From a virus: 64,000 bases of DNA. Each line of letters opens with the position of its first letter. The stretch's first letter is position 1. The stretch covers positions 62,001-126,000 of IMG/VR virus record IMGVR_UViG_3300042922_001475; one strand, given 5' to 3'. Positions 9,001-59,500 of this stretch are shown one piece after another. The notes below the pieces were generated by a model, which searched no databases, had not been told where the DNA came from, and saw only the letters and a program-made list of their open reading frames with translations. A program made the translations under genes and the position numbers.

Positions 9001-9015
9001 TAGGAGATACCTGAT

Positions 9016-9597: not shown

Positions 9598-9609
9598 AGG
9601 ATACTTATT

Positions 9610-10218
9610 ATGGCTAAAGATACAGATATCGTATTAGACCCTATTCAAGGGTTTGACGTAGGTGTATATGCACAGGTCTCTCCTACCCTAGCAGGTGGCG
9701 GCACTCCTGATGCAGTACTAGTTGGCACGTTTACTTCCGTCATGTTTAAGGTGGTGAATCAGACAGAGACGTATCTACCCCTCAACCAGCGTATTGCTCG
9801 TCACCTCGATGGTGAGCTACTATTCGTCTGGGCAGCAGAACAGGGCTTCATACACCCTGGGTTCCTGGCCAATACATTTGGTAGTAACTTTGCTGGAGAC
9901 CTATCAGGCACAGGTAGTCTAACTACCAATGCGGATCCTTCCAATCCTACAGTAAACTATAGGGGCGGTCGTGCAAGTAAGATTAGGCGTACTCAGCGCT
10001 TCTCACTAATCTTCCAGGTAGATATGTCAAGCGATGTAACCTCACAGAACGAGGCCAGCTTCTGGAATGATAACTTCACAGATGATGGTCAGAAGCTAGA
10101 GCTTAAGATGTGTCGTGTAGATACTTATACTTTTGGCGTAACTCCAGGTCGCAACATCGTTGCTAACTCATGGCAAGGTACAGCCGAGATGCTAAGTCTT
10201 CTAAAGCCCGCCGTCTAA
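9610..10218 (+). CDS. Tail tube protein, copy 2 (202 aa)
   Basis: Paralogue of the 9016 gene, sharing the blocks VNQTETYLPLN, EQGFIHPG/EQGLIAPD, CRVDTYTFGVTPGRN and VANSWQGTAE. It differs by a short Thr/Asn/Pro-rich insertion around residues 104-117 (TGSLTTNADPSNP), probably an exposed loop. It lies 12 bases after copy 1 behind an AAGGATA ribosome site and just before a strong terminator, so sheath and both tubes form one transcription unit. The two copies probably occupy different rings of the tail, as in phages with separate tube and tube-initiator proteins; this is inference. Confidence 0.8.
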   Translation: MAKDTDIVLDPIQGFDVGVYAQVSPTLAGGGTPDAVLVGTFTSVMFKVVNQTETYLPLNQRIARHLDGELLFVWAAEQGFIHPGFLANTFGSNFAGDLSGTGSLTTNADPSNPTVNYRGGRASKIRRTQRFSLIFQVDMSSDVTSQNEASFWNDNFTDDGQKLELKMCRVDTYTFGVTPGRNIVANSWQGTAEMLSLLKPAV

Positions 10219-28061: not shown

Positions 28062-29759
28062 ATGCCTTTTGGAGATGGAAGAGCCTGGGTTACGCCCTGG
28101 AAGAGAATCCAACCTATCCCTGCCAACGAGATTGGTGATACAACCGCTGGATCTACGTCTAATGCCCAGACCATTCTGGACAACGTTAGGCGCTATCGTG
28201 GTAACGTAGCTAACGAAGCTGCTCGTGATGCCCTAGCTAATAAAGTAGACGGTGATTGGGTACTCGTTCGTAACGATTCTGGTGGTAACGCTGCTATTCA
28301 GGTATACGACTCTGGCGCAGGTTCATGGGAGTCTATCTCAGGTTCCGGTGGCGGCGGAGGTGGTGGCAATAACAATGGCCACGGCGTACCCATTCAAATC
28401 GGTACTGGTGATGGTGTAGATACCACGTTCACGTTACCGTATACGGGTGCTAACGAGTTCGTATGGATGGACGGAGCCCTAATGATCCGTACCATGGACT
28501 ACACGGTAGCTGCTGGTGTTATCACCTTCTTGACTGCTCCTCCTACCGGAGCAATTATCATTGCTACTGCTGTAGAGCTAACTCCTGCAGAAGATGTAGC
28601 CACCACTCAGTTCAAGGGTGACTTCCCTACAGAGGCTGAGAGACCTTCCAGTGGCCTTATCGATGGTGACTGGTGCTTCGTAGCTACTGCTGCTTCTGGT
28701 GTCCCTGAGATTCAGTACTACACTGTCGCTGATGGTTGGGTACAGATCGGTCAGGGTGGCTTTGCTGTACTTGGTACTCCCGAGATCATCGGTACCGGTA
28801 ATGGTTCTACCACTGTATTTACCCTACCCGGAACCAAGACCAATGAGATCGTCTGGAAAGGTGGCGCTATTCAGCTACCTGGCGTAGACTACACTAAAGC
28901 TGGCGGTAACATTACTTTCTTAACCGCTCCTGCTACAGGTGCTCAGATCCTAGCATCATGCCCGACTGTAATGCCTACCGAGAATGCTGCCACTGCCGGG
29001 GGTGCTACTGGTACTCCCGTAGTGATTGGCACAGGTGACGGTACTACTGCAACGTTTACTCTCCCGTATTCTCAGACTAACGAGACTGTTTGGAAAGGTG
29101 GCGCCGTACAGGTAGCTACTACAGACTACACTAAGTCTGGAGCTACGATTACATTTGTAGCCGGTAACATACCTGCTGTAGGCGAAGAGGTAGTAGCTAC
29201 TGCTGCTGTTAATCCTCTGCTGGGTACTGATGCTCTAACTCTTAACGGAGCCACTGCAACTAACCTAGCTACTGCTAACATGATTGTTCAGCGTCGTAAC
29301 GATGGCACCATTGCTGGTGTCTGTGACGAGGCTCTAACTCTATCTGGTTCTGGTGCAGCTGACTTCGAGCTACTAGCCAATAAGGGTGAAGCTAATGGCT
29401 ACGCTGAACTGGATGCTACCGGTAAGGTTCCCCTAGCTCAGCTACCCCCAATCAGTAACGGCTACACGGTCGTTAACTACACTTCAGGTACTTCAGCTAC
29501 TCTAGCAGCTACCACTACGTTTGCTACCCTTAAGCTAGCTTCATCAGCCTTCTTTACATTTACTCTACCTACCGCTGCCTCTATTGAGAGTGGTCATTCA
29601 GTGGTCATTAAAGATAAGAAGGGCGATGCAGACGTCTATGCAATCACGGTAGCTTCACCTGACTCAGCACTTATCGATGGCTACTCAACATTCGCCATGA
29701 CAGGTGACTTTGCTGCTGCTACGTTCGTCTTTGATGGAACCGACTGGAACGTGATCTAA
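28062..29759 (+). CDS. Long tail fibre 2 (565 aa)
   Basis: The first ~70 residues (MPFGDGRAWVTPWKRIQPIP and RRYRGNVANEAARDALA) match the N-terminus of fibre 1, so both probably dock at the same baseplate site or compete for it. A Gly/Asn-rich hinge lies at ~98-112. Then come three copies of the beta module (about 109-176, 238-304, 317-385), each starting IGTGxGxxTxFTLP. The C-terminus (~460-565) is a different beta domain that ends in TFVFDGTDWNVI, similar in style to phage fibre tips. The TAATG overlap with the next gene suggests coupled translation. Confidence 0.78.
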   Translation: MPFGDGRAWVTPWKRIQPIPANEIGDTTAGSTSNAQTILDNVRRYRGNVANEAARDALANKVDGDWVLVRNDSGGNAAIQVYDSGAGSWESISGSGGGGGGGNNNGHGVPIQIGTGDGVDTTFTLPYTGANEFVWMDGALMIRTMDYTVAAGVITFLTAPPTGAIIIATAVELTPAEDVATTQFKGDFPTEAERPSSGLIDGDWCFVATAASGVPEIQYYTVADGWVQIGQGGFAVLGTPEIIGTGNGSTTVFTLPGTKTNEIVWKGGAIQLPGVDYTKAGGNITFLTAPATGAQILASCPTVMPTENAATAGGATGTPVVIGTGDGTTATFTLPYSQTNETVWKGGAVQVATTDYTKSGATITFVAGNIPAVGEEVVATAAVNPLLGTDALTLNGATATNLATANMIVQRRNDGTIAGVCDEALTLSGSGAADFELLANKGEANGYAELDATGKVPLAQLPPISNGYTVVNYTSGTSATLAATTTFATLKLASSAFFTFTLPTAASIESGHSVVIKDKKGDADVYAITVASPDSALIDGYSTFAMTGDFAAATFVFDGTDWNVI

Positions 29760-30748
29760 TGGCTCACAATCTTATTCACCCTAATCAACTTACTCGTGAT
29801 CAGCTGGCTGCTATACTCTCGCAGTCTGGCGGCAAAGCCTTTGTGTTTGGTGGTTCTATTACGGGTGGCTGGCGAAGCACGGTAGAGCAATACTTCTTTG
29901 CTACTCCCGGAACTAAGGGAGCCGCACCTATAGTATTAGCCGAAGTGTTAAACGGTAGAAAGGCATCTTCAAATGCTACCAATGCTTTTGTCTTTGGTGG
30001 TGATGATGGCGCTGCTACCCCTGTTATGAGAACTACTGTAGAGAATTATATTTTCTCTACTCCTGCAACCAAAGGTACCACCCCTGCTGCACTAAACGAA
30101 GGTAAGAGTTTGTGTATTACTGCAGCCAGTGCTACTAATGCTTTTCTTTTTGGAGGACGTACCTCCTCTACTACATATTTGGACACAGTAGAGAATTACC
30201 AGTTTAGTGTGCCGGGTACAAAGGGCACCACTCCAGCTAATTTAACCACTGCTATGGGACGAACAGAAGCCTCAAGTAATGGTACCAATGCGTTTATATT
30301 TGGGGGGAGTCCGTCATCAAACGCATCAGCCACTAGTACAGTTGAGAACTATATCTTTGCTACACCGGCAAGCAAGGGAACCAGTGCGGCTGCACTAGCT
30401 GTGGCATGCAGTAAGTTAGGAGCTGCAGGTAATGCGATTAATGCGCTTAAAATGGGTGGTTCCAATACTTCAGATACTGACCTAACAACAGTAGAGAATT
30501 ACATCTACGCCACCCCCGGCACTAAAGGTACTGCAGGTGCTGCACTTAGTGGAGGCTATAGTTGGATTACCTGTTCTGCGTCTGCTACTAATGTATTCAA
30601 ATTTGGAGGCAACGGTGGCGGAGCCATTCAAGCTGGCGTTGAGAACTATCAACTTAGTGTACCCGGAACCAAAGGTACTGCACCTGCTTCCCTATCTGCA
30701 GCTGTAAATAATGCTACTTCAGCGTCAAGCCGTTACTTCATCTCATAG
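29759..30748 (+). CDS. Kelch-like six-repeat propeller protein, copy 1 (329 aa)
   Basis: After an N-terminal helix the protein consists of six repeats of ~45-52 residues. Each begins with a strand AFVFGG or variant (AFLFGG, AFIFGG, ALKMGG, VFKFGG), followed by a variable loop, TVENYxF, ATPGTKGT, PAxL and a SxATN end. The Gly-Gly and aromatic positions fit Kelch beta-propeller blades, though the usual tryptophan is absent. It ends SASSRYFIS, a tail shared with the next two genes. Loop lengths vary between blades, as expected for a binding face. It is the first of three tandem paralogues; a fourth lies at 37009. It is probably a fibre-tip adhesin. Confidence 0.72.
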   Translation: MAHNLIHPNQLTRDQLAAILSQSGGKAFVFGGSITGGWRSTVEQYFFATPGTKGAAPIVLAEVLNGRKASSNATNAFVFGGDDGAATPVMRTTVENYIFSTPATKGTTPAALNEGKSLCITAASATNAFLFGGRTSSTTYLDTVENYQFSVPGTKGTTPANLTTAMGRTEASSNGTNAFIFGGSPSSNASATSTVENYIFATPASKGTSAAALAVACSKLGAAGNAINALKMGGSNTSDTDLTTVENYIYATPGTKGTAGAALSGGYSWITCSASATNVFKFGGNGGGAIQAGVENYQLSVPGTKGTAPASLSAAVNNATSASSRYFIS

Positions 30749-30756
30749 GTGTAACC

Positions 30757-31734
30757 ATGTCTTATAACTTAACCAGAATCAAAGATGTAACATCTGAAGT
30801 TGCAGCTAACACCTTCGCTAACTGGGGTGGTGGTGTAGCGTTTGTAATCGGTGGTATTATCCACCCAGAGTGGACCGAGATAGATACCTGTGAACAATAT
30901 GTATTTGCTACACCAGGTACTAAAGGTGTAGCCCCTATCAACCTTAGTGCAGCGCTGGGAGGATACCTATGCACAGGGTCTAACGCTACTGATGCCCTTG
31001 TGTTCTCAGTATGGATGGATCACTATATATTTGCTCAGCCTGGAAGCAAAGGAGCTATGCCAGCAGCACCCTATGAGAACGTTTATGGTTCCAGTGCTGC
31101 TAGTAACTCTACTAACATGTTTATGTTTGGAGGTATAAGAGGATCAGGGGTTAACGCTGGCGTTAATAGTACTTATGTTGATAATTATATTTTTGCTACC
31201 CCAGCTAGTAAGGGTATAACTCCAGCGGTACTATCTATGGCCAGATTCATATCTGCTGCTGCATCTAACAGTTCTGTAGCATTTGTATTTGGAGGCGACA
31301 CCACTGCGTCAGGTAATGGAAGTTCTCTCACTAATACAGTAGAACAGTACGTGTTTACTACGCCAACATCTAAGGGAACAGCTCCAATCAATCTGGCTTC
31401 AAATAAGTATATTATGGGTGCCAGCGGGAACGCTACCAATGCTTTCGTATTTGGAGGGGCTCCAACTACCACCTCAGTAGAAAACTATCAGTTTAATGTT
31501 CCGGCTACTAAGGGTACAACACCTGCGGTACTTAGCGCTGCTCGCGCCCATATGAGTGCAGCTGGAAACGCAACTAATGCCTTTACCTTTGGAGGCCTGG
31601 ATGCAACTACTGATGTGACTACCTGTGAGAACTATCAGTACAATGTTCCTGGTACTAAGGGTACAGCTCCTGCTGCGCTAGCCGTAGCTAAGTATTCAAG
31701 TGCTGCAGCATCTTCAAGATACTTCATCAACTAA
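30757..31734 (+). CDS. Kelch-like six-repeat propeller protein, copy 2 (325 aa)
   Basis: Paralogue of the upstream gene. Six repeats open with AFVIGG, ALVFSV, MFMFGG, AFVFGG, AFVFGG and AFTFGG, and most carry ENYxF or EQYxF, then PxTKGT and a SNATN-type end. Blade 2 has lost the GG pair and is shorter, so the propeller may be imperfect. It ends in SAAASSRYFIN. N-terminal residues 1-25 differ from copy 1, which could place the proteins in different positions of the virion. It is separated from copy 1 by eight bases. A ribosome site is weak (AGGTG). Confidence 0.7.
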   Translation: MSYNLTRIKDVTSEVAANTFANWGGGVAFVIGGIIHPEWTEIDTCEQYVFATPGTKGVAPINLSAALGGYLCTGSNATDALVFSVWMDHYIFAQPGSKGAMPAAPYENVYGSSAASNSTNMFMFGGIRGSGVNAGVNSTYVDNYIFATPASKGITPAVLSMARFISAAASNSSVAFVFGGDTTASGNGSSLTNTVEQYVFTTPTSKGTAPINLASNKYIMGASGNATNAFVFGGAPTTTSVENYQFNVPATKGTTPAVLSAARAHMSAAGNATNAFTFGGLDATTDVTTCENYQYNVPGTKGTAPAALAVAKYSSAAASSRYFIN

Positions 31735-31742
31735 GAGCATGC

Positions 31743-31772
31743 TTGAAATTTACCCGCTAAGGGGAGTATAAT
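31743..31772 (+). promoter_or_regulatory. Promoter-like element before Kelch-like copy 3
   Basis: TTGAAA (31743-31748) and TATAAT (31767-31772) are separated by 18 bases. A transcript would start at about the ATG at 31779, so it would have no leader, while AAGGGGAG (31759-31766) is a good ribosome site for read-through mRNA. The element may be accidental. Confidence 0.3.
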
Positions 31773-31778
31773 AATACA

Positions 31779-32765
31779 ATGGCTTTCGGACTACACAAAC
31801 CAACTATATTTGATACAGATGCTATCTCAAATGCTCTCCAGAGTACTAACGCTGGAGTGGCCTTTGTCTTTGGTGGTGAAGATGGAGTAGTTGCAACCGA
31901 CTACACCACTGTAGAACAGTACATCTTTGCTACACCTGCCACTAAGGGTGCTATGCCTATCAGTTTAGCATATGGTTTGGCAGCCGCTAGTGCTGCTTCT
32001 AACGCTACTGTGGCTTTTATCTTTTGTGGGCAAAAGGATAACGTTTCTGGTGATTTTAATCATCAATATATCTTTGCTAGTCCCGGTACCAGAGGTGCCA
32101 CCCCCGTAGCTACAGCTACTGGTAAATCTAAGACCTGTGCTGCTTCTAATGCTACAGATGCTTTCTTATTTGGCGGCCACCAGGGTGCAGGTGCAGACCT
32201 AGACACAGTAGAGAACTATATATTTGCTGTCCCTAGTAGTAAGGGAGCTAGTCCAACTTCATTAACTCAACCAAGAACTAGAGCATCAGCTTGCGGTAAC
32301 TCTACCATGGCATTTATGTTTGGTGGAGAGTTCATGACTGCAGGTGCTATGCCTATAGGTGCAACGGCTGACTGTGATATATACTTATTCACTAAACCCG
32401 GTACACGTGGATCAGGCGCAGCAGCTTTAAATAGTGCTAGAAGGTTAACCTCAGCTGCCAGTAACGCTACCAATGCATTCGTGTTTGGAGGTGGTGCTAC
32501 TGCTTCAGCCACTTATTACACCACTGTAGAGAACTATTTATATGCTACACCCGGAACCAAGGGTACTGTACCTGCATCACTAAGTAGCGCCGATAGAGCA
32601 GATTCTGCTGCTTCTAGTGCCACCAATGCATTTACATTTGGTACTGCCAGCATTTGTGAGAACTATCAATTTAATGTACCAGGTACTAAGGGTGCTGCCC
32701 CGGCTAACCTATCAAACAACAGATCTAACCACTGTGCTGCCTCTTCTCGTTATTACATTTCGTAA
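31779..32765 (+). CDS. Kelch-like six-repeat propeller protein, copy 3 (328 aa)
   Basis: Third tandem paralogue. Repeats open with AFVFGG, AFIFCG, AFLFGG, AFMFGG, AFVFGG and AFTFGT and carry EQYIF, HQYIF, ENYIF, DIYLF, ENYLY and ENYQF. It ends in CAASSRYYIS, like copies 1 and 2. The variable loop after each GG differs in length (from 3 to ~17 residues), consistent with a diversified binding face. A ribosome site AAGGGGAG lies 12 bases before the ATG, and a promoter-like TATAAT overlaps it. Whether all copies are assembled in one virion or used alternatively cannot be told. Confidence 0.72.
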   Translation: MAFGLHKPTIFDTDAISNALQSTNAGVAFVFGGEDGVVATDYTTVEQYIFATPATKGAMPISLAYGLAAASAASNATVAFIFCGQKDNVSGDFNHQYIFASPGTRGATPVATATGKSKTCAASNATDAFLFGGHQGAGADLDTVENYIFAVPSSKGASPTSLTQPRTRASACGNSTMAFMFGGEFMTAGAMPIGATADCDIYLFTKPGTRGSGAAALNSARRLTSAASNATNAFVFGGGATASATYYTTVENYLYATPGTKGTVPASLSSADRADSAASSATNAFTFGTASICENYQFNVPGTKGAAPANLSNNRSNHCAASSRYYIS

Positions 32766-32782
32766 GGACAACTAATTAATTT

Positions 32783-33484
32783 ATGATGCATGTCAAGAAT
32801 TCCGCCTTTCATATCCTAACCATCATGGTCGGGACTCGTAACACTCCTGACGAAGCCTACAGAGTTCTGTACTTCGAACTAGAAGATCGTAAGCGTGCAT
32901 ACGATGCTGCTATGGCTGGTCGTCTACGCACTAAGGCTAAGCGCATGAAGCTTGAGGCTAAACTCAACACAGCTATAGATGAAATCGAGCGCCTAGAGAT
33001 CGAAGCAGACCTCATGGAGCTAGAGTCAGGAGAGAAGACCACTGAGAACGCTATCCTAGGCTGTGAGCAGGAGATGATGTTTATCCGCCAGATCATGGAT
33101 AAGCTAGAGCCACAGCGCAAGTATGGTCACTTAGAGCTTGGTGCAGCGTTTCAAGCATGCCAAGCCGAAGAGTGGGCTCATGAGTACGTCAAGCGTGCTA
33201 AGCACTTCCAGTTGACCACAGGCACGATTCCTACGGATCACCTAGACGTAATGGTTGCTCACCCCATGTTTGAATCTTTTATTGCTCCTGCTATCGAAGA
33301 CTTCAGAATGGAGCTTGTAGACCGTAAGGCTGGCCTCCACGCTATGCCCGAACTAGCTCCACCACCGTTCATGCAACAGCTCATGGTGGACTTCGCTCCA
33401 CTACTACCTGCCAGTCCAGAGCAGGCCCAGCTCCAGCTAGAAGCCACTAAACTAAACCTACTAAAAGAGAACAACGATGCCTAA
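32783..33484 (+). CDS. Coiled-coil protein, candidate fibre chaperone (233 aa)
   Basis: Not recognised. Residues ~30-110 form a long charged helix or coiled coil (RKRAYDAAMAGRLRTKAKRM, IDEIERLEIEADLMELE), and the rest is helical with a C-terminal Pro/Leu-rich region. It is unlike the beta-rich proteins around it. Small helical proteins inside fibre clusters are often assembly chaperones, but there is no motif to prove it. The start is one of two adjacent ATGs (32783 or 32786) behind AAGGACA. It overlaps the next gene by eight bases. Confidence 0.55.
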   Translation: MMHVKNSAFHILTIMVGTRNTPDEAYRVLYFELEDRKRAYDAAMAGRLRTKAKRMKLEAKLNTAIDEIERLEIEADLMELESGEKTTENAILGCEQEMMFIRQIMDKLEPQRKYGHLELGAAFQACQAEEWAHEYVKRAKHFQLTTGTIPTDHLDVMVAHPMFESFIAPAIEDFRMELVDRKAGLHAMPELAPPPFMQQLMVDFAPLLPASPEQAQLQLEATKLNLLKENNDA

Positions 33485-35630
33485 GATTCATGAAAATGCA
33501 GTAAACATCCCAGACCTAGGTTTGGGCACTAGAATGGTAGCTAACGTAGCTAGCCAGGCTGACCTCAGGGTTACTGGTGGTGTTGAGCGCGTAACTCTAG
33601 ACGGTGAAGTAGATTCGCTTACCGGTGCTTATGTACCTAAAGACAAGCGCATTACTCTTAGCAGAGGTTGGATAGATACATATGGTGCCTCTACAGCTTA
33701 TGGGCTCCCCTATGATAACCCCATGGTGTCCAGCACGACCAGCCCTGTTCGCTTGTATAGCAATGTAGCTAATACCACTATGACGATCAACTGGCGTGGT
33801 ACTGGCCTTGTCGCTTCTCTTGCTCGTATTGAGACTGGTGGAACGTTCACCGTTAGTAATGATGGTGGCGGGACCACAACTCACGATACATACAACCCAG
33901 GAGCTAACAGTAGCTTTGGTAATAGCATGGTTGTTGCGTCGGGGTTAACTTATGGTGACCACACTACTGTTATTACAGTTACAGGCACTAAGGGGGGATC
34001 GGGAGCTTCAAGTGGTGCTACAGTTTATGTTAATGGCTTTGACATCCTAACCTCCACGGATGCCACAGTTAAGTACACTACCGGTAGTGCTTTCCCTAGC
34101 GGAGAGAAGGCCACGGTAGCTACTGCTGGGTCACTTAGTCTGACGGCTATCAGCACTGCTACTGGCCGCAAGGACCTAGTAGTCATGCGTGCTGGCGAGA
34201 CTATCCCTGAGGTGATTACTGGTACTGCTAGTAATTCTGGTGATAACCTAGCTACGTTCAAGTCTAAGAATGAGATTGCCTATACTGTTGGGGTTACTGA
34301 CCAATCAGGTAAGTTAGCTAATATCTGGCAGACTTCTGGTGTAGTAACGTATAACTCAACTATGGTGACTATCGGAAGTAGTGGGACTGGCGGAACAACT
34401 GATTATGTTATGATCGGCTTTATTGGTACGGGCATCAGCGCTGTATTCGAAACCGGTCTAGATCGTGGCGAGTTTGGTTGGAGCATAGATGGCGGAGCAG
34501 AGACACTGCACGACCTTTACAGTAATCCTCGTAGTACAAAAGCATTTGATACAGGTAAGAATCTAACCTACGGCTATCATCAGTTAAAAATTAGAAAGGC
34601 AGGAAGCAAGAACCTCAGTGCAAGTGATTACTGGGTAATTCTAAGCCACTTTGATATCTACCACCCCAAGGCTCCTGCATGCCCTGCAGACGCCATGCCC
34701 CTTGCTGAGGTCATCCCTACCCCTGCTAATGGTTGGGTGAGGTACGATGATGCTGCTGGTTGGGTGTACACTGGAACTAACTGGACTACTGTTAGTGCAG
34801 GCGCAGCTACTGGCGGGATTGTTCGTCAAAACGCTAATACAAACACAACGGATAAGGCCGAGTTCACATTTGTAGGTACACAGTGCCGAATCATCACGAC
34901 CAACAATACAGCAAACGGTAAATACAATATCTCTATTGACGGGGGAGCTAATACATTAGTTGACTGTTATGGTAGCAATAACTATGCTGCAACCTATACC
35001 TCAGCTACACTAACTCCAGGAGTCCATACAGTTACCATTACAATGGCTAACGCTAAGCACGCTAGTTCTAGTAGTAACGTTGTTAACCTAGACTCTATCG
35101 AAGTATTACCCCTACCTGCTCAGGTTCGTGATGTTCGTAACTTCAGTGTGGTTGGTGACGATGTTCTTGAGAAGTTAGAAGAGAAGATTGAGATAGTTAA
35201 GGCTGGAGTTGAAGCTATTAAGTCTAGAGTTTATGTAACTTCAACGGCTGGCATCGCATTCCCCATCAACAACTCTACTTTGAAAATTCCTTATGGTAAT
35301 CCAACAGTAGATACCAAGGGAGAGTGGGATAATGCTACCAATAGGTGGACAGCCAAAGAAACTTGCACTATTCATCTAACTGCTGCGTACACCCCCAGTA
35401 CGTGGGTTAGCAATATGTTAAGTGAACTGCTAGTCTACAAAAACGGTGTACATGAAATCAGCATCAGCAAGGGTTCTTACTCTTCAACTAACTCTGGTTG
35501 GTTCGGGTCTACTTACATAGATGTCAATGCAGGGGACTATATTGAACTTTACATGTATAAGTCTGGCGGCACAAACGTTACCCCTACAACTGAAGGTAAG
35601 ACCACTTGGGTGCGTCTAAGAGAAGTATAA
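33477..35630 (+). CDS. Fibre protein with three jelly-roll repeats and C1q-like tip (717 aa)
   Basis: Three divergent ~90-residue repeats lie at about 100-192, 309-398 and 460-546. They share a pattern: FxGTGxxxxxET or FVGTQ strand, a FxxSxDGGxxTLxDxY-type segment (SIDGGAETLHDLY, SIDGGANTLVDCY), an LTYGxHxxxIT strand (LTPGVHTVTITM) and a final D-I or DSI strand. This resembles galactose-binding-like modules. A helical spacer (~556-585) precedes a C-terminal ~130-residue beta domain with a TNF/C1q flavour (SELLVYKNGVHEISISKGSY, VNAGDYIELYMYKSGG). It is probably a host-sugar-binding fibre. The start overlaps the upstream gene. Confidence 0.65.
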   Translation: MPKIHENAVNIPDLGLGTRMVANVASQADLRVTGGVERVTLDGEVDSLTGAYVPKDKRITLSRGWIDTYGASTAYGLPYDNPMVSSTTSPVRLYSNVANTTMTINWRGTGLVASLARIETGGTFTVSNDGGGTTTHDTYNPGANSSFGNSMVVASGLTYGDHTTVITVTGTKGGSGASSGATVYVNGFDILTSTDATVKYTTGSAFPSGEKATVATAGSLSLTAISTATGRKDLVVMRAGETIPEVITGTASNSGDNLATFKSKNEIAYTVGVTDQSGKLANIWQTSGVVTYNSTMVTIGSSGTGGTTDYVMIGFIGTGISAVFETGLDRGEFGWSIDGGAETLHDLYSNPRSTKAFDTGKNLTYGYHQLKIRKAGSKNLSASDYWVILSHFDIYHPKAPACPADAMPLAEVIPTPANGWVRYDDAAGWVYTGTNWTTVSAGAATGGIVRQNANTNTTDKAEFTFVGTQCRIITTNNTANGKYNISIDGGANTLVDCYGSNNYAATYTSATLTPGVHTVTITMANAKHASSSSNVVNLDSIEVLPLPAQVRDVRNFSVVGDDVLEKLEEKIEIVKAGVEAIKSRVYVTSTAGIAFPINNSTLKIPYGNPTVDTKGEWDNATNRWTAKETCTIHLTAAYTPSTWVSNMLSELLVYKNGVHEISISKGSYSSTNSGWFGSTYIDVNAGDYIELYMYKSGGTNVTPTTEGKTTWVRLREV

Positions 35631-35634
35631 AATT

Positions 35635-36504
35635 ATGCTAGAAGCAACAATCACAAATACATTCCCATCAGGACTCAAGCTAGTCCGCCACTATGACTCA
35701 CATGAGGTCGGTAGCTACTCTATCGACACTCAGTGTGGCACTGTGAGCTACTACTCAGCTATGGTGGACCAACTGATCTACCAGTCACTTGAGTACTACA
35801 ACAAGCCTGACGGTAAGAATAAGTTCTTGGAGAAGGTAGAGCTACACGTCTATTCATTCTTCATCCCTAACATGCCTAACTCCACTGCTCAGGCTTACTG
35901 TATCGATCTAGGTAACTATCGTTCACGTATTGATATTAGGTTTTACGATACGCCTAGCTTCGGATCTTATAAGATGCTAGCCGCTGTCTCACATGAGATG
36001 GGCCACGCATACCATAACTGGATCAGATGCTTCTCACACGCTAACATCAACGGTGAGTTCTCTCAGTTCTGGGAGAAGCAGGTGTCTAGCAACCATACCG
36101 TCTGGAACCCCAACATGAAGCCTTGGGATCAGCCCTGGGGTACTGGGTCACGTGACGAGGATAAGTTCGAGCAGTTCGCTAATGCATTCAGATACTTCAA
36201 GGGAGTCCTAGCTACTCGTGGCGTCTCCGGTGCTGGTACTACTGATCCGGTGGTCCCTGGTTTCGAAGACCCTGCAGCCCATGCTGAGTGGGGTAAGCAG
36301 CTTAAGATCCTTCCCGAGACCTGTGCCTTCTGGGAGACATATGGCCTAAAACCTGCATCACTTGTATGGTATGGTGGTACTACAGGTTACTGGCAGTTCC
36401 AGCAATCAGATGGTACTTGGATTGCTCAGACGGACTATAACACTTGGTTCAAGTGGCAGAACAACGCTTGGGTACAGTACTGGCCCACATACAATAGGAC
36501 TTAA
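35635..36504 (+). CDS. Virion-associated zinc metallopeptidase candidate (289 aa)
   Basis: His120-Glu-Met-Gly-His124 in VSHEMGHAYHNW is a zincin HExxH motif in a helix. Glu179 in DEDKFEQFANAFRYF is a good third zinc ligand for a gluzincin-type fold (E-x-F-A). Residues 60-110 supply preceding strands (KVELHVYSF, SRIDIRFYD). The last ~65 residues are Trp/Tyr/Gln-rich (GYWQFQQSDG, TWFKWQNN, WVQYW) and look like a separate binding segment. It lies between fibre genes, has no signal peptide, and starts four bases after the upstream stop. It could cut a host surface protein or process virion proteins; substrate unknown. Confidence 0.65.
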   Translation: MLEATITNTFPSGLKLVRHYDSHEVGSYSIDTQCGTVSYYSAMVDQLIYQSLEYYNKPDGKNKFLEKVELHVYSFFIPNMPNSTAQAYCIDLGNYRSRIDIRFYDTPSFGSYKMLAAVSHEMGHAYHNWIRCFSHANINGEFSQFWEKQVSSNHTVWNPNMKPWDQPWGTGSRDEDKFEQFANAFRYFKGVLATRGVSGAGTTDPVVPGFEDPAAHAEWGKQLKILPETCAFWETYGLKPASLVWYGGTTGYWQFQQSDGTWIAQTDYNTWFKWQNNAWVQYWPTYNRT

Positions 36505-36508
36505 TTAG

Positions 36509-37009
36509 ATGCCTGATATTCATCCTTCAGTGTTCGATGCGGCGGCCATCGATCTATCAACTAACCCTCTAGCCACTGATGTAGCTGAAGCAGTCGCAGA
36601 CGCGGACAGTGCTCTTGCTGCTGCAGGCTCAGCCCAGACTGCTGCTAACACTGCTAACACTACGGCTAACAATCTCAAGTTCTATGATATCGGTGCAGGC
36701 TGTATGGGTAAGCCTGCTGCTAGCGCTATCATACTTATTTACAAGCTCCCCAGAGCAGTTAACTTTGGTGCCAACATGGCAGGCAGTTATGCTGTTGCTG
36801 CTACGGCTGCTACTGCTTCGACCGTGTTCACAGTCTACAAAAACGCTGTCCAGGTAGCTACTATTACCTTTGCTGCTTCAGCCACCACTGGTACGTATTC
36901 AGGTACGGCTAACTTCGCTGCTGGCGACAACATTGGTATCGTAGCTCCTGGTACCCAAGACAGTACCTTAGCTGACATTGGCTTTAGTCTCGCAGGAGTA
37001 ATTCCCTAA
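36509..37009 (+). CDS. Lectin-like fibre-tip protein, copy 1 (166 aa)
   Basis: Residues 1-55 are an Ala/Thr/Asp-rich helix (ADADSALAAAGSAQTAANTA) that probably forms a trimeric stalk. Residues ~57-166 are a beta domain that recurs in the 37948 protein: FYDIGxG, KPxAxxxI, RAVxFxANMxGS, a F-T-V-x-K strand, GDxxxIxAPxTxDxTLAD and a final F-x-L strand. This domain type is common at phage fibre tips, with a signature close to FxKNGxxxGTI and GDxLxIxAPxxxDxTLADI. The gene overlaps the next one by one base. It is probably a receptor-contact protein or an adhesin tip. Confidence 0.62.
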   Translation: MPDIHPSVFDAAAIDLSTNPLATDVAEAVADADSALAAAGSAQTAANTANTTANNLKFYDIGAGCMGKPAASAIILIYKLPRAVNFGANMAGSYAVAATAATASTVFTVYKNAVQVATITFAASATTGTYSGTANFAAGDNIGIVAPGTQDSTLADIGFSLAGVIP

Positions 37010-37935
37010 TGCCACCTATGGTTAGCGTCTTCAATAGAGCGCGTCCAAATCTAGATACTGCAATGGGGTTTCTGTTTGGTGGTATCATCACAGGCAACTC
37101 CAGTGCGGTTGTAGATACATACCAGTTTGCTAACCTCAGTACTAGAGGCGCTGCGGCTGCTAACCTTAGCGCTGGTAGATACAACTTCAGAGCTGCGGGT
37201 AATAATACTAACGCGTTTACATTCGGTGGCTGGACCAATACGACAGTGTCTACTGTAGAGAACTACCTGTTTGCTACTCCAACTACTAAAGGCACTACAC
37301 CCAGCGCATTAAGTGGTATCCGTCACGGTACTGCAGCATCTAGTAACAACACCAATGCCTTTACGTACGGCGGTAGAACCAGTAGTGACTCTAATGCTGT
37401 AGAGAATTATGTCTTTGCTACTCCGACCAGTAAGGGCACATCCCCTTCAACCCTATCTACTGCTAGAGCCCACCTAAGAGCAACTGGAAATAATACTGTT
37501 GCATTTGTATTCGGAGGAAGCACTGGCGAAGGTTCTGCCTTTGTGAGTACCGTAGAGCAGTACCAGTACGCTAGTCCCGGTACCAAGGGCACTACCCCCT
37601 CGGTCTTGGCACAAGCTAAAGATGGTATGGGTGTAGGGGCTAATGCCACTATTGCCCTAGTTATGGGTGGTAGAACTACTTCTGGTGGAACCAACATTGC
37701 TACCGGCGAGCAGTATATTTTCGCTACACCCACTACTAAGGGCGCTGCTCCAGCAAACCTAGCGTCAGCTAATGCTAGTGCTGGTGACCTCTGTAGTGGA
37801 ATATCTTTACTGTTAGTTTATGGCTCATATGCCGAGCACTATATCCTAGCCACTCCTAGCAGCAAGGGTGCATCCCCCGCAACCTGTACCGTGGAGTGGG
37901 GCGGCGCTGGTGCAACCAACTATACAAAGTCATAA
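37009..37935 (+). CDS. Kelch-like six-repeat propeller protein, copy 4 (308 aa)
   Basis: Paralogue of the 29759-32765 set but separated from it by fibre and peptidase genes. Repeats open with GFLFGG, AFTFGG, AFTYGG, AFVFGG, ALVMGG and SLLLVY and carry VDTYQF, VENYLF, VENYVF, VEQYQY, GEQYIF and AEHYIL, followed by TxTKGT-type turns and NNTN ends. The last blade lacks the GG pair. The C-terminus (GGAGATNYTKS) differs from copies 1-3, which end in SSRYFI[NS]. It sits between the two lectin-like tip genes, suggesting that tip and propeller genes work in pairs. It overlaps the upstream gene by one base. Confidence 0.7.
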   Translation: MPPMVSVFNRARPNLDTAMGFLFGGIITGNSSAVVDTYQFANLSTRGAAAANLSAGRYNFRAAGNNTNAFTFGGWTNTTVSTVENYLFATPTTKGTTPSALSGIRHGTAASSNNTNAFTYGGRTSSDSNAVENYVFATPTSKGTSPSTLSTARAHLRATGNNTVAFVFGGSTGEGSAFVSTVEQYQYASPGTKGTTPSVLAQAKDGMGVGANATIALVMGGRTTSGGTNIATGEQYIFATPTTKGAAPANLASANASAGDLCSGISLLLVYGSYAEHYILATPSSKGASPATCTVEWGGAGATNYTKS

Positions 37936-37947
37936 TGGAGAATAACA

Positions 37948-38439
37948 ATGCCTAAGATTGGTAAAGCTGGAGTGCACAGCGACATTGCACTAGACTCGGA
38001 AGTAACAGCAGCTCTAGCCAGTAAGGCTGACACATCAGCACTAACGTCTAAGGCCGATACCACTACAGTTACTGCTCTTCAGTTCTATGATGTGGGTGGC
38101 GGTTTTGGAATCAAGCCTTCTGCTAACGAAGTCATCTTGGTTTACAGGACTGCTAGAGCCCTAAGCTTTGCAGCTAACTTTACTGGATCAGTAGGCTATG
38201 CTAACGTAGCCCCGACTGCTAGTACTACCTTCACTGTACATACTAAGACTACCCCTACCGGTTCTGAGACCCAGATCGGTACCATCGTGTTTGGTACCAA
38301 CAAGTCTGCTACCTTCACCACCACCAGCGGTACAGCTAAGTCCATGGCAGTAGGTGATATCCTCATCGTTAAGGCTCCCGCATCCCCCGATGCTACTCTA
38401 GCTGAGGGATGCTTCACTCTTATTGCGACCTTAGTCTAA
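37948..38439 (+). CDS. Lectin-like fibre-tip protein, copy 2 (163 aa)
   Basis: Paralogue of the 36509 gene. It has a helical N-terminal stalk (~1-45, TAALASKADTSALTSKADT) followed by the same beta domain: QFYDVGGG, IKPSANEVILVYR, ARALSFAANFTGS, TFTVHTK, GDILIVKAPASPDATLAEG and CFTLIATLV. The start follows GGAGAATA. It ends one base inside the next gene (TAATG at 38437-38441). As for copy 1, trimerisation through the helical part and receptor contact through the beta domain are inferred from the domain type and the position among adhesins. Confidence 0.62.
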   Translation: MPKIGKAGVHSDIALDSEVTAALASKADTSALTSKADTTTVTALQFYDVGGGFGIKPSANEVILVYRTARALSFAANFTGSVGYANVAPTASTTFTVHTKTTPTGSETQIGTIVFGTNKSATFTTTSGTAKSMAVGDILIVKAPASPDATLAEGCFTLIATLV

Positions 38440-39587
38440 TGCCTTTTATTCAGAATAGGACAGGAGGTCGAGGAGGCTTCGGCTTCTTTAAAAATAGTGG
38501 AATAGAGTTCACCTATAACTTAGGTGGAGCATCTGCGCTTGCTCAGCCAACCGATGATAGAAACGAGATAGGTTTTGCTACCGACGGGAATAAGTTATTC
38601 TTCTTCGGAGGTAAGAACTCAGCGGCCTCGGCTCTCTACAACACTGTACAGATTTACGACATCGCCTCTAATCAGTGGAGTACAGGACCCACGATGGCGG
38701 CATCCAGAACCTCTTCTGCATGTATATACTATCCACCTACTAACAAGATTTATGTCTTTGGAGGCGGTAATACATCGGATGGTGGTGGTGGCAGTAGCAC
38801 TGTTTACATATACAATGTTGCAACTAATTCATGGGATGTTAACGGTGCTCTCGCTCCAGCAATTAACTCAGATGACCAGTGCTTCTTGGTAGGAAGTGAT
38901 GTCTATGTAGGTAGAGGTACTGCGGTGGGTGCAACTAACACCACCTGGTACAAGTACAGTATTACCAATAATACTTGGTCTAGTACTGTGGCCGCGTACC
39001 CTATTGGTAACTGTTCAGGTGCAGCAGCCACCGTTCTAGGCAAGGGCTACGTATTTGGTGGTCAGGGCTCAACAGCAGGCCAGGCCGTATATATGTACGA
39101 GAACTCTAACAACACTTGGGTAGGTAAAGCTAGCATGCCCGGACTTGTTATGGAACCAGTAGCAACCACCCTTCCAGATAATTCTGTATATGTCATAGGT
39201 GGTATGGATGGTTCAAGCGTAGCACAGAACTACATTCAGATTTATAATCCGGTAAGTAATACATGGGACAACACACATACGTTAACTACCGCTAGGACCA
39301 GACATGCTGCTCTATCAGTTAAAGGACGAGTATACGTTGCTTACGGTTCAAACACTACGTCTATGGAAGCTTTCGATACAATGGCCTACATTGGAACAGC
39401 AAATACCGAGGGTACAGTTACCTGCACAACTAACGGCTACCAGGTGACTAACGTAACCTCTGGCGTGACCGCAGATTCAGTAAGCTTTACTATAGGTGAT
39501 GTTCTAGTAGTTAAGACAGCCCCTATTAAGGTTGGAACCCAACAGTTAGAAATAAAGGTTCGCATAGTCGGAACCGTAACCCCCTAA
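38439..39587 (+). CDS. Classical Kelch-repeat beta-propeller protein (382 aa)
   Basis: Six blades of ~45-50 residues follow a Gly-rich N-terminus. They open with KLFFFGG, KIYVFGG, DVYVGRG, GYVFGG, SVYVIGG and RVYVAYG. Most carry the Kelch pattern of IYxxxxNxW (IYDIASNQWST, IYNVATNSWDV, IYNPVSNTWDN). This is much closer to canonical Kelch than the four other propellers, which lack the tryptophan. The last ~65 residues form a beta domain with a GDVLVVKTAP segment, similar to the tip domain of the preceding genes. The start ATG at 38439 is preferred over an in-frame ATG at 38409 because it overlaps the upstream stop as TAATG. Confidence 0.75.
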   Translation: MPFIQNRTGGRGGFGFFKNSGIEFTYNLGGASALAQPTDDRNEIGFATDGNKLFFFGGKNSAASALYNTVQIYDIASNQWSTGPTMAASRTSSACIYYPPTNKIYVFGGGNTSDGGGGSSTVYIYNVATNSWDVNGALAPAINSDDQCFLVGSDVYVGRGTAVGATNTTWYKYSITNNTWSSTVAAYPIGNCSGAAATVLGKGYVFGGQGSTAGQAVYMYENSNNTWVGKASMPGLVMEPVATTLPDNSVYVIGGMDGSSVAQNYIQIYNPVSNTWDNTHTLTTARTRHAALSVKGRVYVAYGSNTTSMEAFDTMAYIGTANTEGTVTCTTNGYQVTNVTSGVTADSVSFTIGDVLVVKTAPIKVGTQQLEIKVRIVGTVTP

Positions 39588-53544: not shown

Positions 53545-56500
53545 ATGGCCGAGACGCCACTTAACGGTAACGTACCCAACAACTCCCTAGAGAGTAACTA
53601 TAGAATGGTGTACCCTGCAGACCTTAGTTCTGACAGGATGCTCAAGTATGGGCAGGATACTGTACAGTCCCGTATGGACTTGGTTAACAGGTCCAACAAG
53701 TATGAAGTTACCTCTTACGATGTAAGGTTCGGTAACGAGTTTACTGATCAGGTCTTTACTAACCCTAACTTCACACTATACGGATCTAACCGCTCTACTA
53801 GTGAGAACAATGCCTATGCTTATGGTAACTATGCTAAGGCTGCTAGATGGGGAGCCGCTAAAGGTACCCTAGTAGAACTACCTACAGAGCCCTTCGGCAG
53901 GCAGATGCACATTAAGGCAGCCATAGCTGAACTTAAGACCGGAGAAACTGTAGGATTTGTTGGGACAGCTAACGCCACGGATAGTGGGCTAGGTGAGGGC
54001 AGTAGAGCCCAGTTCAACTATGGAGTAGAGTTCTCAGACAAAGAGCTAGTAAGCCAGCTAAGAACCGTTATGAACCAGATTGCTACTGGTGAGTCCCCTA
54101 CTTCAACTAAGAACTTTATTGTTCAGTCTCCTAAAGATCCTGACGCAGGTTTAGCTGCTGTAGTTGGGTTTATCAATAATGAAAAGAATCATAGTGATCT
54201 ATACATCTCATCTGCTTCACTGACCAATAAAGATGTCATAGGGGCCTTAGTGGCTAAGGCTGGTCGTGGAGAAGATGTATACGTAGGGTTCGGTGGATTA
54301 AGCCAAGACGACGATTGGCGTAGTCAGGGTGCTTATGAGATGCTCATGAGTGACCCGGAGACCGCTAAGCACATCCATGCGGGTATGCGTAGAGGTGGAC
54401 GTCACGAGAACATGATAGCTATGGGCGACGAAGCCATAGTTGGTTCTATGCGTTTCTCTAAGTCAACCCTAGACGGAGTTATGGATAGAGAGACTGGTAA
54501 GAGAACACACGGTACAGAGCTTCTACTCTATGCTAAGAACAAGCATCTAGCTAAAGACGTACAGAATAAAATTGCTGAAGGTTACGACTACAAAGCTACA
54601 GAAGCATGGGCTAACAGATTTGAGTCTAAGTATAGCTGGCTAGCTAACCAGTTCATGCCCCTTAACTCGGCCACAGGTAGAACCAAGTATCTTATTGATC
54701 CCACAGTGCCGACCTTTGCTAAAGAGTATGCCATTGAGTCAGGAACTATAGATAGGTTCGAACAGAGTGCATCACTCGGTACGTCTATTTATGCTTCACT
54801 CTTTAACGAAACATACAACCGTCTTCCAACCGCTGGCGAGATGCCTGAAGAGGTCAAAGCTTTTGATCGACTAGCCGCTAAGCGCACCTGGGGTCAAGAG
54901 TCATTCGGACTAGAGAAGGTTCCTGTAATTGGAGACCTTATAAAGAACTGGGGTGGACTAAGACAGCTAGGTACCAGAGGCCCCATCGATTCTATGTTGA
55001 TCCGTGGAGCCATGTGGGCTGATGATCATGTCTTTACCAGCGCACTACGTGAGCGTAATCCTTATACAGGAGAGTATCAGAAAGAAACTCCTATGCAGGC
55101 TCTTGCAAGATTCACCTATGATTCCACTTCAGGTATCGTAGGTAACATCGCTGGGTACTACTGGGTGACTCTACCTGGTCTACGTGTAATGATTCACGCT
55201 AGGTCAGCCATCCAAGATCAACTTAACACTTGGGCAGCTAAAGAGAGAAGCCCTGGTGTTGGTCGTGCTGCTAAGTTCCTATTCGGACGTAACTACGATC
55301 TAATCGGCCACCGTATTGCGGGTGAAGTAACCGGTACTGTACTCAAGCCAGTAGCCCAGATGCTAGAACCAATTCTAGGGTTTACCCGAGGCATCAACGA
55401 AATTGAACAGATGTACCTTAATGGTGGCGACTGGGATGATGACGTTAAAGCCAGAGGTAGTGCACCTGCTCGTCTACAGACAGAGATCAGTCACCCTCAA
55501 GGTAAAGAAAGAGCATTCAGGATAGCTGACAGAACGCTAGCTAACCACCCTCTACTTAGAGCTGTATCTGGTATGGGTATCGCTAGGTACTTTGCTGAGT
55601 ATAGCCCCTACATGCTGTACAAGACAGCTATGGATGGTATAGATGTAGTAAAGGCTGGACTAGATGTCTACAGAACAGAAGGTACTCACTCGACCGAACT
55701 ACGTAAGGCTATGAGGGATGTAACCACAGGTAAGGTCCTAAACAAGTTCTCATTCGGATTGCTTGGTCAGGATATCTATCAGCGTGGTTATGAAGTCTGG
55801 GACAAGATCTATGGGGAGAACAGCAAAGCTGTAGGTAAGACCTCAGCTAGGGGTCCTGCGGTAAATCGCTTTGGTAGGCCTACAGGTAACGCTAAAAAGG
55901 GATATACCCTCAAGAGCGGTAAGTTAGAGTTCGCTGGAAGAACTATTACAGTCAACACTGCTAACGTACTTCTTGACGATAAGATGACCAGAGTACACCA
56001 GAGTATCAACAGCGCTACTGCTGACTTTGATACACGCTGGAACAAAGCCCTGGGTATCGATAATCAACTTAAGAAGGCTGTGCAGAACACTGACGGTATG
56101 TGGGCGCGTAAAGCTCTAGCAGTGGCCATTCCTCTTATCTTCTTGAATAAGTGGGCTGGTGATGTTGGTGCTGCCTCTCGTGTAGACGTAGCTGCACAAG
56201 CTGCCTTCAGAGATAGGGTTAATGATCTCAACTCAGTTAAGGGTTTCAGAAGAGACATAGACATTAACTGGACTGGAGGTATATCTGATTGGGGTGGACT
56301 TGGTATCCTAAACCCAATTACCTTACCTCTACAAGCCATGGCTTATAAGTTCGATCAACTAAAAGCTTCTTGGTATAACTACACCACTACATCAAAGGCC
56401 CTAGATAAAGTACAGGTAGCTTCTGGTGGTGTATACGGTCAGGCAGCTCTACAGCTAGCTGGAATGGCCATTGCTAACCCAGGTAAGGTGTACACCGGCA

Positions 56501-59500
56501 CCGGTAACGACTCGGCTGCTATGAAGCAGAGAGCTGCTCAGTTTGCTGCATCAGGTAATTACAGTCTAGCTAACAGTCTACTTCTAGAATCTAGATTAGG
56601 TCCTGGAGCTAACACACAAGCCTTCTCAACCAGGAATGGCCTATCACTAGCTCTACAGATTGACGCTGTACCCCTACTCTTCACCCCTACTGCTGCTGTA
56701 AGCTTTATGGGCGACCAGGGTGTATTCTCATTCTCACTACAGGGTCCTGTTATGTTCCCTGTAGGTTTCACCATTGGTTCACCCCTAGGACTTAAGAAGC
56801 ACGACGGAGCACCTGAAGACGCTCACCTAGGATTCCTAAAGGGTATGGGCCTTCTTGAGCACATCTCAGGTTACAACGTAGACTACGTATCAGGTACCTC
56901 AGGTGAGAAGCTATTCAGGCTAGGCATGACTGCTTATGGTGCAGCTTCAGTAGCTAGAGCCCTTACCATGGATTATGAGTTCAGAGGTAAGACTTACGAT
57001 AACAAGCTCAAGTTCCTAAAGGAGATGAACACCTATAAGACCCTGAGCAATGCTAATAAAGTAATTAAGTTTGCTTCAGCCACTGCACCTATGTCACTAG
57101 TGAACCTAGGACTAGCAGGGCTCAATCTAGCTGGGGATGCTTGGCACTATGTAAACCTACAAGAGACTGGAGGATTTTCTAGAGACGCAGTTAACAACAT
57201 TCTACGTCATAGTGATAAAGACCTAAGAGCCCAAACCATCAAGGAAGAGATCTGGCACGCCAAAGCTGGTAAGGTTGATGTTAAGATCGGGTCACACTTA
57301 GATAGTGTTCTTGAAAGGATAGCCACTGAAGAAAGAAGACTAGGAGTAACTGGACTACCTAACAATCACCAGTTCTATAATGATCTGGTACAGGATGAAT
57401 ATAAGCACCTTCTAAAGGGTAAGTATTCAGATAGATTCTGGAATGGGCGTCTATCTCAAGGTATCGCCCTTGCAGGTGGTGTACTAGCTGGTGCTTACTT
57501 CCTAGCGGACCTAGGTCTCTCAATGTATGGCCAAGCATTTGCTAGTGGTCCTGGTGGTTCTGCAGATTGGTACAAGCGTATCAATGAAGGCATCATGAGA
57601 ACCACAGGAGCGCTATCTGAGGGCATAGACAATACTGTAGGTAAGCTACCTGGAGTATTCGGTCTACCTGGACATACTGCTGCTGCAGCTGTAAATGTTA
57701 TAGGCGGTCTGTTTGCATCACTATTTGATGTAGGCTACTCTACTGCCATGAGCAAGGACATGATGGCCATAGCTGCCTTCAAGAAGCGCATTGGAGATAG
57801 AGAAGGCTTCGAAGAGTACAGTGGGGATATGAATGGTTACTTCATTCGTATGGGTAACAGATTCAAGGATGCCTTTGCAGGTACCTATGGTGGCGTGGCT
57901 CCTAGATTCCTAGGTACCAGTAACCTCGGTGCTGTGTTCGGGCAGGTAGGTCTAGACTCAACAACATTTAGTAAGGTCTACGTACAGGGCGGTATTCTTG
58001 GTATCACAGGTACTGTGGCTACTGGAGCTATCAACACCCAAGAGGACACCAACACCTCTAGGATGATGGCTGCTTACATTGAAAGAGCCTTTGTTGATCC
58101 TGGTCGCGACGAACGTACATCTAATCGTAGAAAGTCTGGTGTGATTGGTGAGATGTTCCACAACGAAAGTGGAACTCGTAGCCAGAGCGGTATTGTACAG
58201 ATGCAGATCCGTAACCGCACACAGATGACTAACTGGATCCTAAGCACTGACACGGTAGACGTGGCCAGACACTTCTTCATGCCTACAGAGCAGTCTAATA
58301 AGGGAGCTGGTCTTCTAGATGGACTGAAGGCTATCCTGGGTCCTAACGTAGACAGGAGAGTTAAGCAGTGGGGTACAGGTATTGCTGACTTCGGCTATAT
58401 GTTCGGGTCATCTAAGTCTAAGAGCTTCTTTGAACTATTCGAGTCTACCCGAGACTACGCAACCCAGACAGGCGAACTAGGAGAACTAGACTTCTTTGCT
58501 CACGACTACCAAGGAGAGAGTAACAGAATAGCTTTCGACAACCCTAAGGGTATGTCCCCAGAAGATTTCCATAGAGAAGTCTTCCAGACCAACCCGGCAG
58601 CTAAGGCCGGTCTAGTTATCGGTACCTTAGGTACTATTGGTATTGGTATCCTGGCAGCTAGGAACGTCCTTCGTGGAAAGGGTGTTGGTCAGATCAAGCC
58701 TGATATGATTGGCGATGTATTAGGCGAATCAGGTAGAGCAGCTAGAATCGGTGTAGTGGGAATCAGTCCTACTGGATCACATGCTATGCAATCTACTTCA
58801 GCTTTCAAGCCTGGCTCTAAGCCATTCACGGGTGCTCAGGTAGCTGGTAAGTTCTACGATAGATACGCATTTGTTATTGGTTCAGGAACTAACCAAGGCC
58901 TATACTCATTCGGTCTGTTTGGCAATATCGAAGATGAATACGGTAATCCTTACATGCAGAAGGGCCGTGTTATGGGAGCTGTCAACCACAGAACCTTTAA
59001 AGAAACCCTAGTACAAGCTAAGACTCTTGCTGGTGGTAAGGGTGTTAAGGACCTAGCCGTATCCCTAGAACTCATGAGAGAGACAAAGGGAATCAATATT
59101 GCTGGACACCAGTTCCCCAAGCTTGCTGTTGCTGAGAAACTAGAGAAGTTAGTATCACAGATTGATGACCTAGACGATGCTCTACGTACTCAGCGCAAGA
59201 TGCTACAGACTAGTCTCCAGGACATTAAGGAGCTAACCACCAAGGGTAAGCTAATGGCTGATGGAACCCGTCAAGCACTAGACACTACAGAACAGGCTGT
59301 TATGGCTCGTCGTAGGGACACCCGCAAGGTAGCGATGAGGGGCACAGATCACTTACTAGCTAACCTAAACTACAAGACAGACCTAACAGACTTCGTACAG
59401 GACCTACGTGGAGGTCGTGGTGCTGCATGGACTGGAAGTAAGGTTCAGGTAGATGGTCGTAAAGCACTAACCCAAATGAGTGATGAGCTAAGTAAGAGAC

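Follow-up and report, generated by a model that had tools for sequence, protein, structure and literature searches.

The Propeller Locus

The window considered here is a 64,000-nucleotide stretch of viral DNA, bases 62001–126000 of the IMG/VR record IMGVR_UViG_3300042922_001475 (record length 200,185 bp), and the subject of this report is a group of five genes within it, k1 to k5, that encode Kelch-type β-propeller repeats. The + strand of the window carries, in succession, genes for a major head protein, tail sheath, baseplate, fibre, holin, amidase, and terminase. The propeller region has the sheath, baseplate wedge, and tail genes upstream, and a holin and an endolysin downstream. Because the sheath and terminase most resemble those of Microcystis phage Ma-LMM01 and its relatives (26–31% identity), the window is assigned to a large, contractile-tailed bacterial virus that is a distant relative of freshwater cyanophages. 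Ma-LMM01 has a similar order of sheath, baseplate, fibres, and terminase, yet its genome gave no match when searched with the repeat and Kelch profiles, and synteny with this phage was set aside.

All five propeller open reading frames (ORFs) listed in a preliminary description of the window were confirmed (Table 1). Genes other than k1–k5 are named here by their first base. The fibre gene 28062 lies directly upstream of k1, with its stop overlapping the k1 start by one base, and a partner gene, 32783, directly follows k3. In the same manner, the stops of 36509 and 37948, which encode short fibre-end proteins, overlap the starts of k4 and k5, respectively, by one base. The mechanical ORF of k5 begins at ATG 38409; 38439 is the likelier start, since it overlaps the stop of the upstream gene.

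Table 1. Genes and domains of the propeller region, in window coordinates (aa, amino acids; HMM, hidden Markov model).
Feature	Position	Strand	Basis
Tail-fibre/virion structural protein, 565 aa	28062..29759	+	phrog_11431 virion structural 1.9e-11; phrog_2710 tail fiber 3.6e-11
k1, tryptophan-less Kelch-type six-bladed propeller (predicted), 329 aa	29759..30748	+	six repeats; AlphaFold2 model; Foldseek PDB
k2, k1 paralogue, 325 aa	30757..31734	+	46% identity to k1; blades pair by index with k1, k3
k3, k1 paralogue, 328 aa	31779..32765	+	49% identity to k1; blade pairing by index
Partner gene, 233 aa, phrog_1409 (function not assigned in PHROG), putative propeller-tip assembly helper	32783..33484	+	BcepSaruman_109 40% identity; propeller linkage
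Short fibre-end protein before k4, 166 aa	36509..37009	+	phrog_11585, 22757, 7049 (tail fiber), 11660
Dock domain of gene 36509	36665..37006	+	dock alignment and dock HMM
k4, tryptophan-less Kelch-type propeller, 308 aa, more diverged, last blade degenerate	37009..37935	+	phrog_19111 1.7e-8; Kelch_1 25.2 bits; marine-repeat HMM 5.5e-6
Short fibre-end protein before k5, 163 aa	37948..38439	+	phrog_22757, 11585, 7049; start region like gene 33477
Dock domain of gene 37948	38074..38436	+	dock HMM and dock alignment
k5, classical Kelch propeller with short C-terminal extension, 382 aa	38439..39587	+	Kelch_1 2e-28; Kelch_6 4.8e-27; phrog_16120 virion structural 3.2e-23

Repeat Architecture and Predicted Fold

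Each of the k1–k4 proteins contains exactly six [YH]x[FYL]xx[PL]x[TS][KR]G units, in keeping with the earlier claim that one distinct repeat occurs six times in each. A looser form, Px[TS][KR]G, is present 23 times in k1–k4 together versus a mean of 0.08 after shuffling, and the strict form [AG]F[VLIT][FY]GG occurs 14 times versus 0.003 in shuffled proteins. The shared motifs as first worded were real but slightly too strict, as PxTKGT and PAxL are each found nine times and neither is present in every blade. The core of the unit is nearly constant (37 aa in 18 of 20 complete units, 38 aa in the other two), whereas the loop that follows the GG doublet ranges from 4 to 18 aa, a strong difference in length that had been pointed out from the start. 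Sequence variation peaks in this loop and in a second hypervariable stretch, columns 18–25, located after PAxL. The conserved columns hold residues of a structural kind (G, P, F, Y), and the proteins are composed of blades plus a short N-terminus only.

The tryptophan that is conserved in Kelch repeats after strand C (YDPxxNxW) is missing from the core in all 24 units of k1–k4, which carry PxTKG instead. With the Pfam model Kelch_1 (PF01344; cut-off of 20.1 bits), k1 (20.7 bits), k4 (25.2 bits), and k5 (97.9 bits) score above the cut-off and k2 (10 bits) falls below it, while k3 is not listed. The k5 protein retains the tryptophan motif and matches Kelch_1 with an E-value of 2e-28, four of its repeats passing individually. 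It had been described as a classical Kelch protein of six repeats; the class stands, and by eye there are approximately five clear blades and a degenerate sixth.

Of the four paralogues, k1 alone was modelled, with AlphaFold2 and an input alignment of 65 rows that included 60 homologous six-blade segments from IMG/VR. The resulting model (predicted local distance difference test [pLDDT], 89.4; predicted TM score [pTM], 0.87) confidently predicts k1 to be a six-bladed Kelch propeller, a fold defined by six four-stranded blades in a closed ring. A Foldseek search of the PDB with this model returned, as its best 50 matches, only Kelch domains or Kelch designs, with E-values down to 2.8e-17. Among the closest were Keap1 (1zgk, TMt 0.89) and the design SAKe6BE-L2 (TMt 0.90), and values for Keap1, KLHL, and SAKe6 structures were mostly 0.84–0.90. 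Matches among viral models included the “Kelch-motif containing protein” of Burkholderia phage BcepSaruman and M4QT40 of cyanophage S-SKS1. Structure prediction and a search with the repeat profile were checks suggested in the preliminary description; the first predicted a Kelch fold for k1, and the matches of the second, marine ORFs described below, were also propellers. The Kelch domains of Keap1, KLHL12, and KLHL20 and the SAKe6 designs share with k1–k4 the (predicted) six-bladed fold, the GG doublet, and the strand-C aromatic residue. They differ in that the repeat core of k1–k4 lacks tryptophan and measures 37 aa plus the loop, identity is about 16–21%, and the context is that of viral fibres. 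A sequence search of the PDB for k1-type relatives found none.

In Keap1 and other Kelch domains, the BC and DA loops form one face of the propeller. By analogy, the variable loops after GG and PAxL of k1–k4 are the putative BC and DA loops, so that variation would be concentrated on a single, putative receptor-binding face.

The k2–k4 proteins are 41–49% identical to k1. Since blades of k1, k2, and k3 are most alike when they share the same index (identity of 0.52–0.55 versus 0.44–0.46 otherwise), these genes are judged from their repeats to have arisen by whole-gene duplication; blades of k4 show no such pairing with k1–k3. No further copies of k1-type proteins were found in the 200-kb record. 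The possibility that the propellers are targets of a diversity-generating retroelement was rejected, as a search of the record, which may be incomplete, gave no reverse transcriptase (RVT_1) match. Duplication and divergence are therefore the likelier source of loop diversity here.

Related Propellers in Other Viruses

An HMM of the window's repeat unit matched ORFs of marine viruses (best E-value, 6.6e-9), and a reversed-sequence control was empty. Conversely, when an HMM of the marine repeat was compared with every ORF in the window, only k4 (5.5e-6) and k2, then k3 weakly, were found. In a MAFFT alignment, the marine repeat follows k1–k4 column for column across six blades. The PHROG 19111 profile, which matches the S-SKS1 protein at 1e-233, detects k4 at 1.7e-8 and has no direct match to k1–k3; nonetheless, all four proteins align in register with PHROG 19111 members. 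Most of the marine homologues have 12, 18, or 24 repeats per protein (one half plus multiples of six), and these blocks of six are an independent sign that six blades close the ring. Because at least two propeller ORFs are present in 58 of the 76 marine-type loci, arrays of tryptophan-less Kelch-type propellers are taken to be common in phages, with k1–k4 as a divergent branch.

The proposal that the repeat is a previously undescribed adhesin family was consequently not upheld: it is a divergent branch of a larger family of phage propellers that includes PHROG 19111, S-SKS1, BcepSaruman gp110, and proteins of many IMG/VR contigs, and both k1 and k4 pass the Kelch_1 cut-off. The marine cyanophage proteins of PHROG 19111 (S-SKS1 SWZG_00001; Marine virus AG-345-L05) resemble the window proteins in repeat geometry, blade for blade and in blocks of six, in the tandem genes of each locus, and in the absence of the Kelch tryptophan. 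They differ in having mostly 12, 18, or 24 blades and the motif YGYFGGG...DRIDFSNETxSxPGNNL, in contrast to the one six-blade domain and the motif AFVFGG...VENYxFxxPxTKGxxPAxL of the window proteins, to which they are about 16–23% identical. A second group consists of BcepSaruman gp110 and proteins of the IMG/VR loci L108, L110, L111, L119, and L121. As in the window, its members possess a single six-blade domain of ~300 aa, a short N-terminus, and linkage to a homologue of partner gene 32783, but the motif type is YTYSxDTVxxGTxL without TKG, and one to four genes are usual.

Searches of other phages, viral contigs, and bacterial genomes did not turn up the PxTKG flavour of the repeat, with the reservation that variants in codons or residues may escape a pattern scan. 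No TKG-type relatives of k1 occur among INPHARED phages, and none were confirmed by an alignment scan of viral contigs or a k4 scan of genomes. The exact TKG-repeat DNA pattern had no match in bacterial genomes. Its sole viral match (L006) was dismissed, as it sits after a ribonucleotide-reductase-like ORF and not in a propeller. A second DNA pattern gave L008–L011: the motif lies in short ORFs in L008–L010, and L011 was rejected for having one motif only, in an unrelated ORF. Paper searches on Kelch or propeller tips in cyanophages yielded nothing about this family.

The Dock Domain

The 36509 and 37948 products end in homologous domains of ~110 aa (41% identity), referred to here as dock domains. 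The same domain closes the long fibre proteins located directly upstream of propellers in L110, L119, and L111 (5e-30 or better). It was confirmed in 182 stretches in IMG/VR, and counts were made over 80 loci (L136–L215), some of them near-duplicates. In 74 of the 80, the domain lies within 15 residues of the stop. The next gene is often only 0–12 bases away, and the products of such genes are diverse: propellers at four loci, of which two are near-identical, F5/8-type C (discoidin) domains in L154 and L162, a SPRY-like domain below cut-off in L173, and others without a Pfam family. A dock domain (phrog_11660) also forms the C-terminus of the 1,412-aa gp101 of phiCbK, a tail protein detected in purified virions by mass spectrometry (PMC3556154).

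In L121, four propellers and one lectin-like ORF (8991–9731, with a Laminin_G_3-like domain below cut-off) begin with MFRFLLCK or nearly so, as expected for a common docking peptide with exchangeable tips. The position of the dock domain, the tip-like genes that follow it, the virion detection of gp101, and the shared N-terminus in L121 together suggest a socket at the fibre end into which tips of different fold would plug.

The Partner Gene

Relatives of 32783 were found in only three phages among 50,697 phage records. One is BcepSaruman_109, which is 40% identical to the 32783 product over 168 residues and adjoins the kelch-motif gene. An IMG/VR search with an alignment of the closer partner group gave 17 loci, 14 distinct by our count, of which 13 contigs could be assessed (in L130, left out, the partner is at the contig end). 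A propeller ORF is the direct neighbour of the partner in 12 of these 13. Nine such neighbours were detected by profile (L111, L118, L119, L120, L121, L122, L124, L125, and L126) and three were recognized from their repeats (L128/L129, L132, and L133, the last being the weakest); in L131, a propeller lies ~5 kb from the partner. No locus was chosen for its propellers, and some (L108–L111) had initially come to light because of the partner. Neither propeller nor partner matches arose when the same 519 ORFs were reversed or shuffled. Linkage is claimed for the closer partner group only, since the PaBG-type homologues (25–29% identity) of L106 and L112 have other surroundings, with no propellers.

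Tail-assembly chaperone genes (PF16778 or homologues) are present near some partner loci. In view of these genes and of the propeller linkage, the 32783 product is probably a propeller-tip assembly helper, acting in folding or mounting. The roles proposed for the dock domain and the helper gene seem not to have been described before.

At L108 (4661–5922), a six-blade propeller precedes an ORF of 118 aa whose N- and C-terminus are nearly those of the propeller but which has only about two blades. This ORF is possibly a deletion product, an assembly artefact, or a recombination donor.

Function of the Propellers

Receptor-binding tips are the most likely role of the propellers, and a pool of such tips, as envisaged in the preliminary description, is plausible. 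The genes lie in the fibre module beside fibre-end proteins, and the best support for tips comes from two elements beyond that description, namely the dock domain that precedes k4 and k5 and the partner gene that follows k3. From the repeats, the predicted fold, homology, and gene order, we infer a virion location, docking, a helper role, and receptor binding, and we consider it probable that the five are separately encoded, interchangeable tail-fibre tip adhesins with one variable face. Fibre ends would carry the dock domain, and k4 and k5 would attach through short N-terminal segments to the distal dock domains of the 36509 and 37948 products, respectively. The duplicated k1–k3 would probably attach likewise to a fibre ending in the 28062 product. 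One of several propellers would be mounted through its short N-terminus, probably with the aid of the 32783 product in folding or mounting, and its BC/DA loop face would contact a glycan or protein of the host surface.

Propellers are already used, or proposed, as host-binding domains of virion proteins in the phi11/phi80alpha receptor-binding protein, PRD1 P2, and PhiKZ gp131 (PMC4901313, PMC7048315). These are five- or seven-bladed rather than separate six-bladed tip genes, and that of phi11 is a domain within a larger trimeric protein. The gp38 adhesins at the fibre tips of T-even phages have a polyglycine-rich fold. Such tips (e.g., PP01 gp38, PMC12892980) differ from the propellers in being of unrelated fold and in lacking a dock domain of this type.

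Several points weigh against tail-fibre tips. BcepSaruman gp110 is outside an annotated tail module. The dock domain precedes k4 and k5 and is absent before k1–k3, while the partner is missing from the marine arrays and from the k4/k5 pairs and so is not generally needed. The k1 model depends on the homologous rows (with the four window proteins alone, pLDDT is 31), and the loop-face assignment rests on analogy with Kelch structures.

Other functions can be considered for the propellers. They could decorate the capsid or tail surface, or bind glycans weakly, and so aid adherence to mucus or cell-surface sugars without deciding host range. Phage virions are known to bear propellers and lectin-like domains, and the label “head and packaging / virion structural protein” is attached to some of the PHROG profiles matched by k5 and by the protein encoded before k1. 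The genes, however, sit in the interval from baseplate to lysis, dock domains are found at fibre C-termini, and tail-assembly chaperone genes lie nearby in relatives (PF16778 in L121); these three features point to fibres and make decoration unlikely. An enzymatic role for some of them, galactose-oxidase-like or glycan-modifying, that would trim the host surface is brought to mind by the Pfam name “Galactose oxidase, central domain” for some Kelch models and by two neighbours, 33477 (CE2_N) and 35635 (HExxH), that look enzymatic or sugar-binding. As k1–k4 are made only of blades and a short N-terminus with no added catalytic domain, and their conserved columns are structural in type, we regard this role as very unlikely. 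The least probable role is one within the host cell, where the propellers would, for instance, serve as protein-binding scaffolds and interfere with host proteins in the manner of eukaryotic and poxvirus Kelch proteins. While gp110 of BcepSaruman does lie among non-structural genes, the structural-operon position and dock linkage of the window genes and the recurrent linkage with fibre genes in L108, L110, L111, L119, and L121 argue against it.

The tip-adhesin interpretation can be extended to a general plug-and-socket mode of host recognition, in which a conserved dock of ~110 residues, placed at the end of many phage fibres, would accept separately encoded tips of unrelated folds (Kelch propeller, discoidin, SPRY-like, lectin-like), the tryptophan-less Kelch tips having a dedicated helper of the 32783 family. 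This broader proposal is put forward tentatively, as a possibility that we would not yet call probable. In uncultured phages, receptor-binding proteins rank with the parts that are hardest to predict. If docks and tips are paired in this way, then a short conserved domain marks the plug-in site, and tips of any fold could be found as the next gene. PHROG 19111 and phrog_1409, both labelled “unknown function”, would gain a testable role, and Kelch propellers, a well understood binding scaffold, would join the receptor-binding repertoire of phages as free-standing tips. With its wide distribution and many unannotated following genes, the dock domain is a possible handle for finding phage tip proteins.

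Neighbouring Genes

Two genes lie between the partner gene and the short fibre-end gene before k4. The first (33477–35630) encodes a 717-aa protein with N-terminal matches of the CE2_N carbohydrate-esterase type (PF17996, 4.2e-10) and may be a further sugar-binding module carried on a fibre. The start regions of this gene and of 37948 are alike (74% over 46 nt). The second (35635–36504), situated between two fibre-type genes, encodes a 289-aa protein with an HExxH motif (SHEMGHAYH) and a tryptophan-rich C-terminus; no Pfam family matched it above cut-off. Farther downstream, a single ORF of 3,038 aa spans 53545–62661, after nucleotide-metabolism genes on the other strand.

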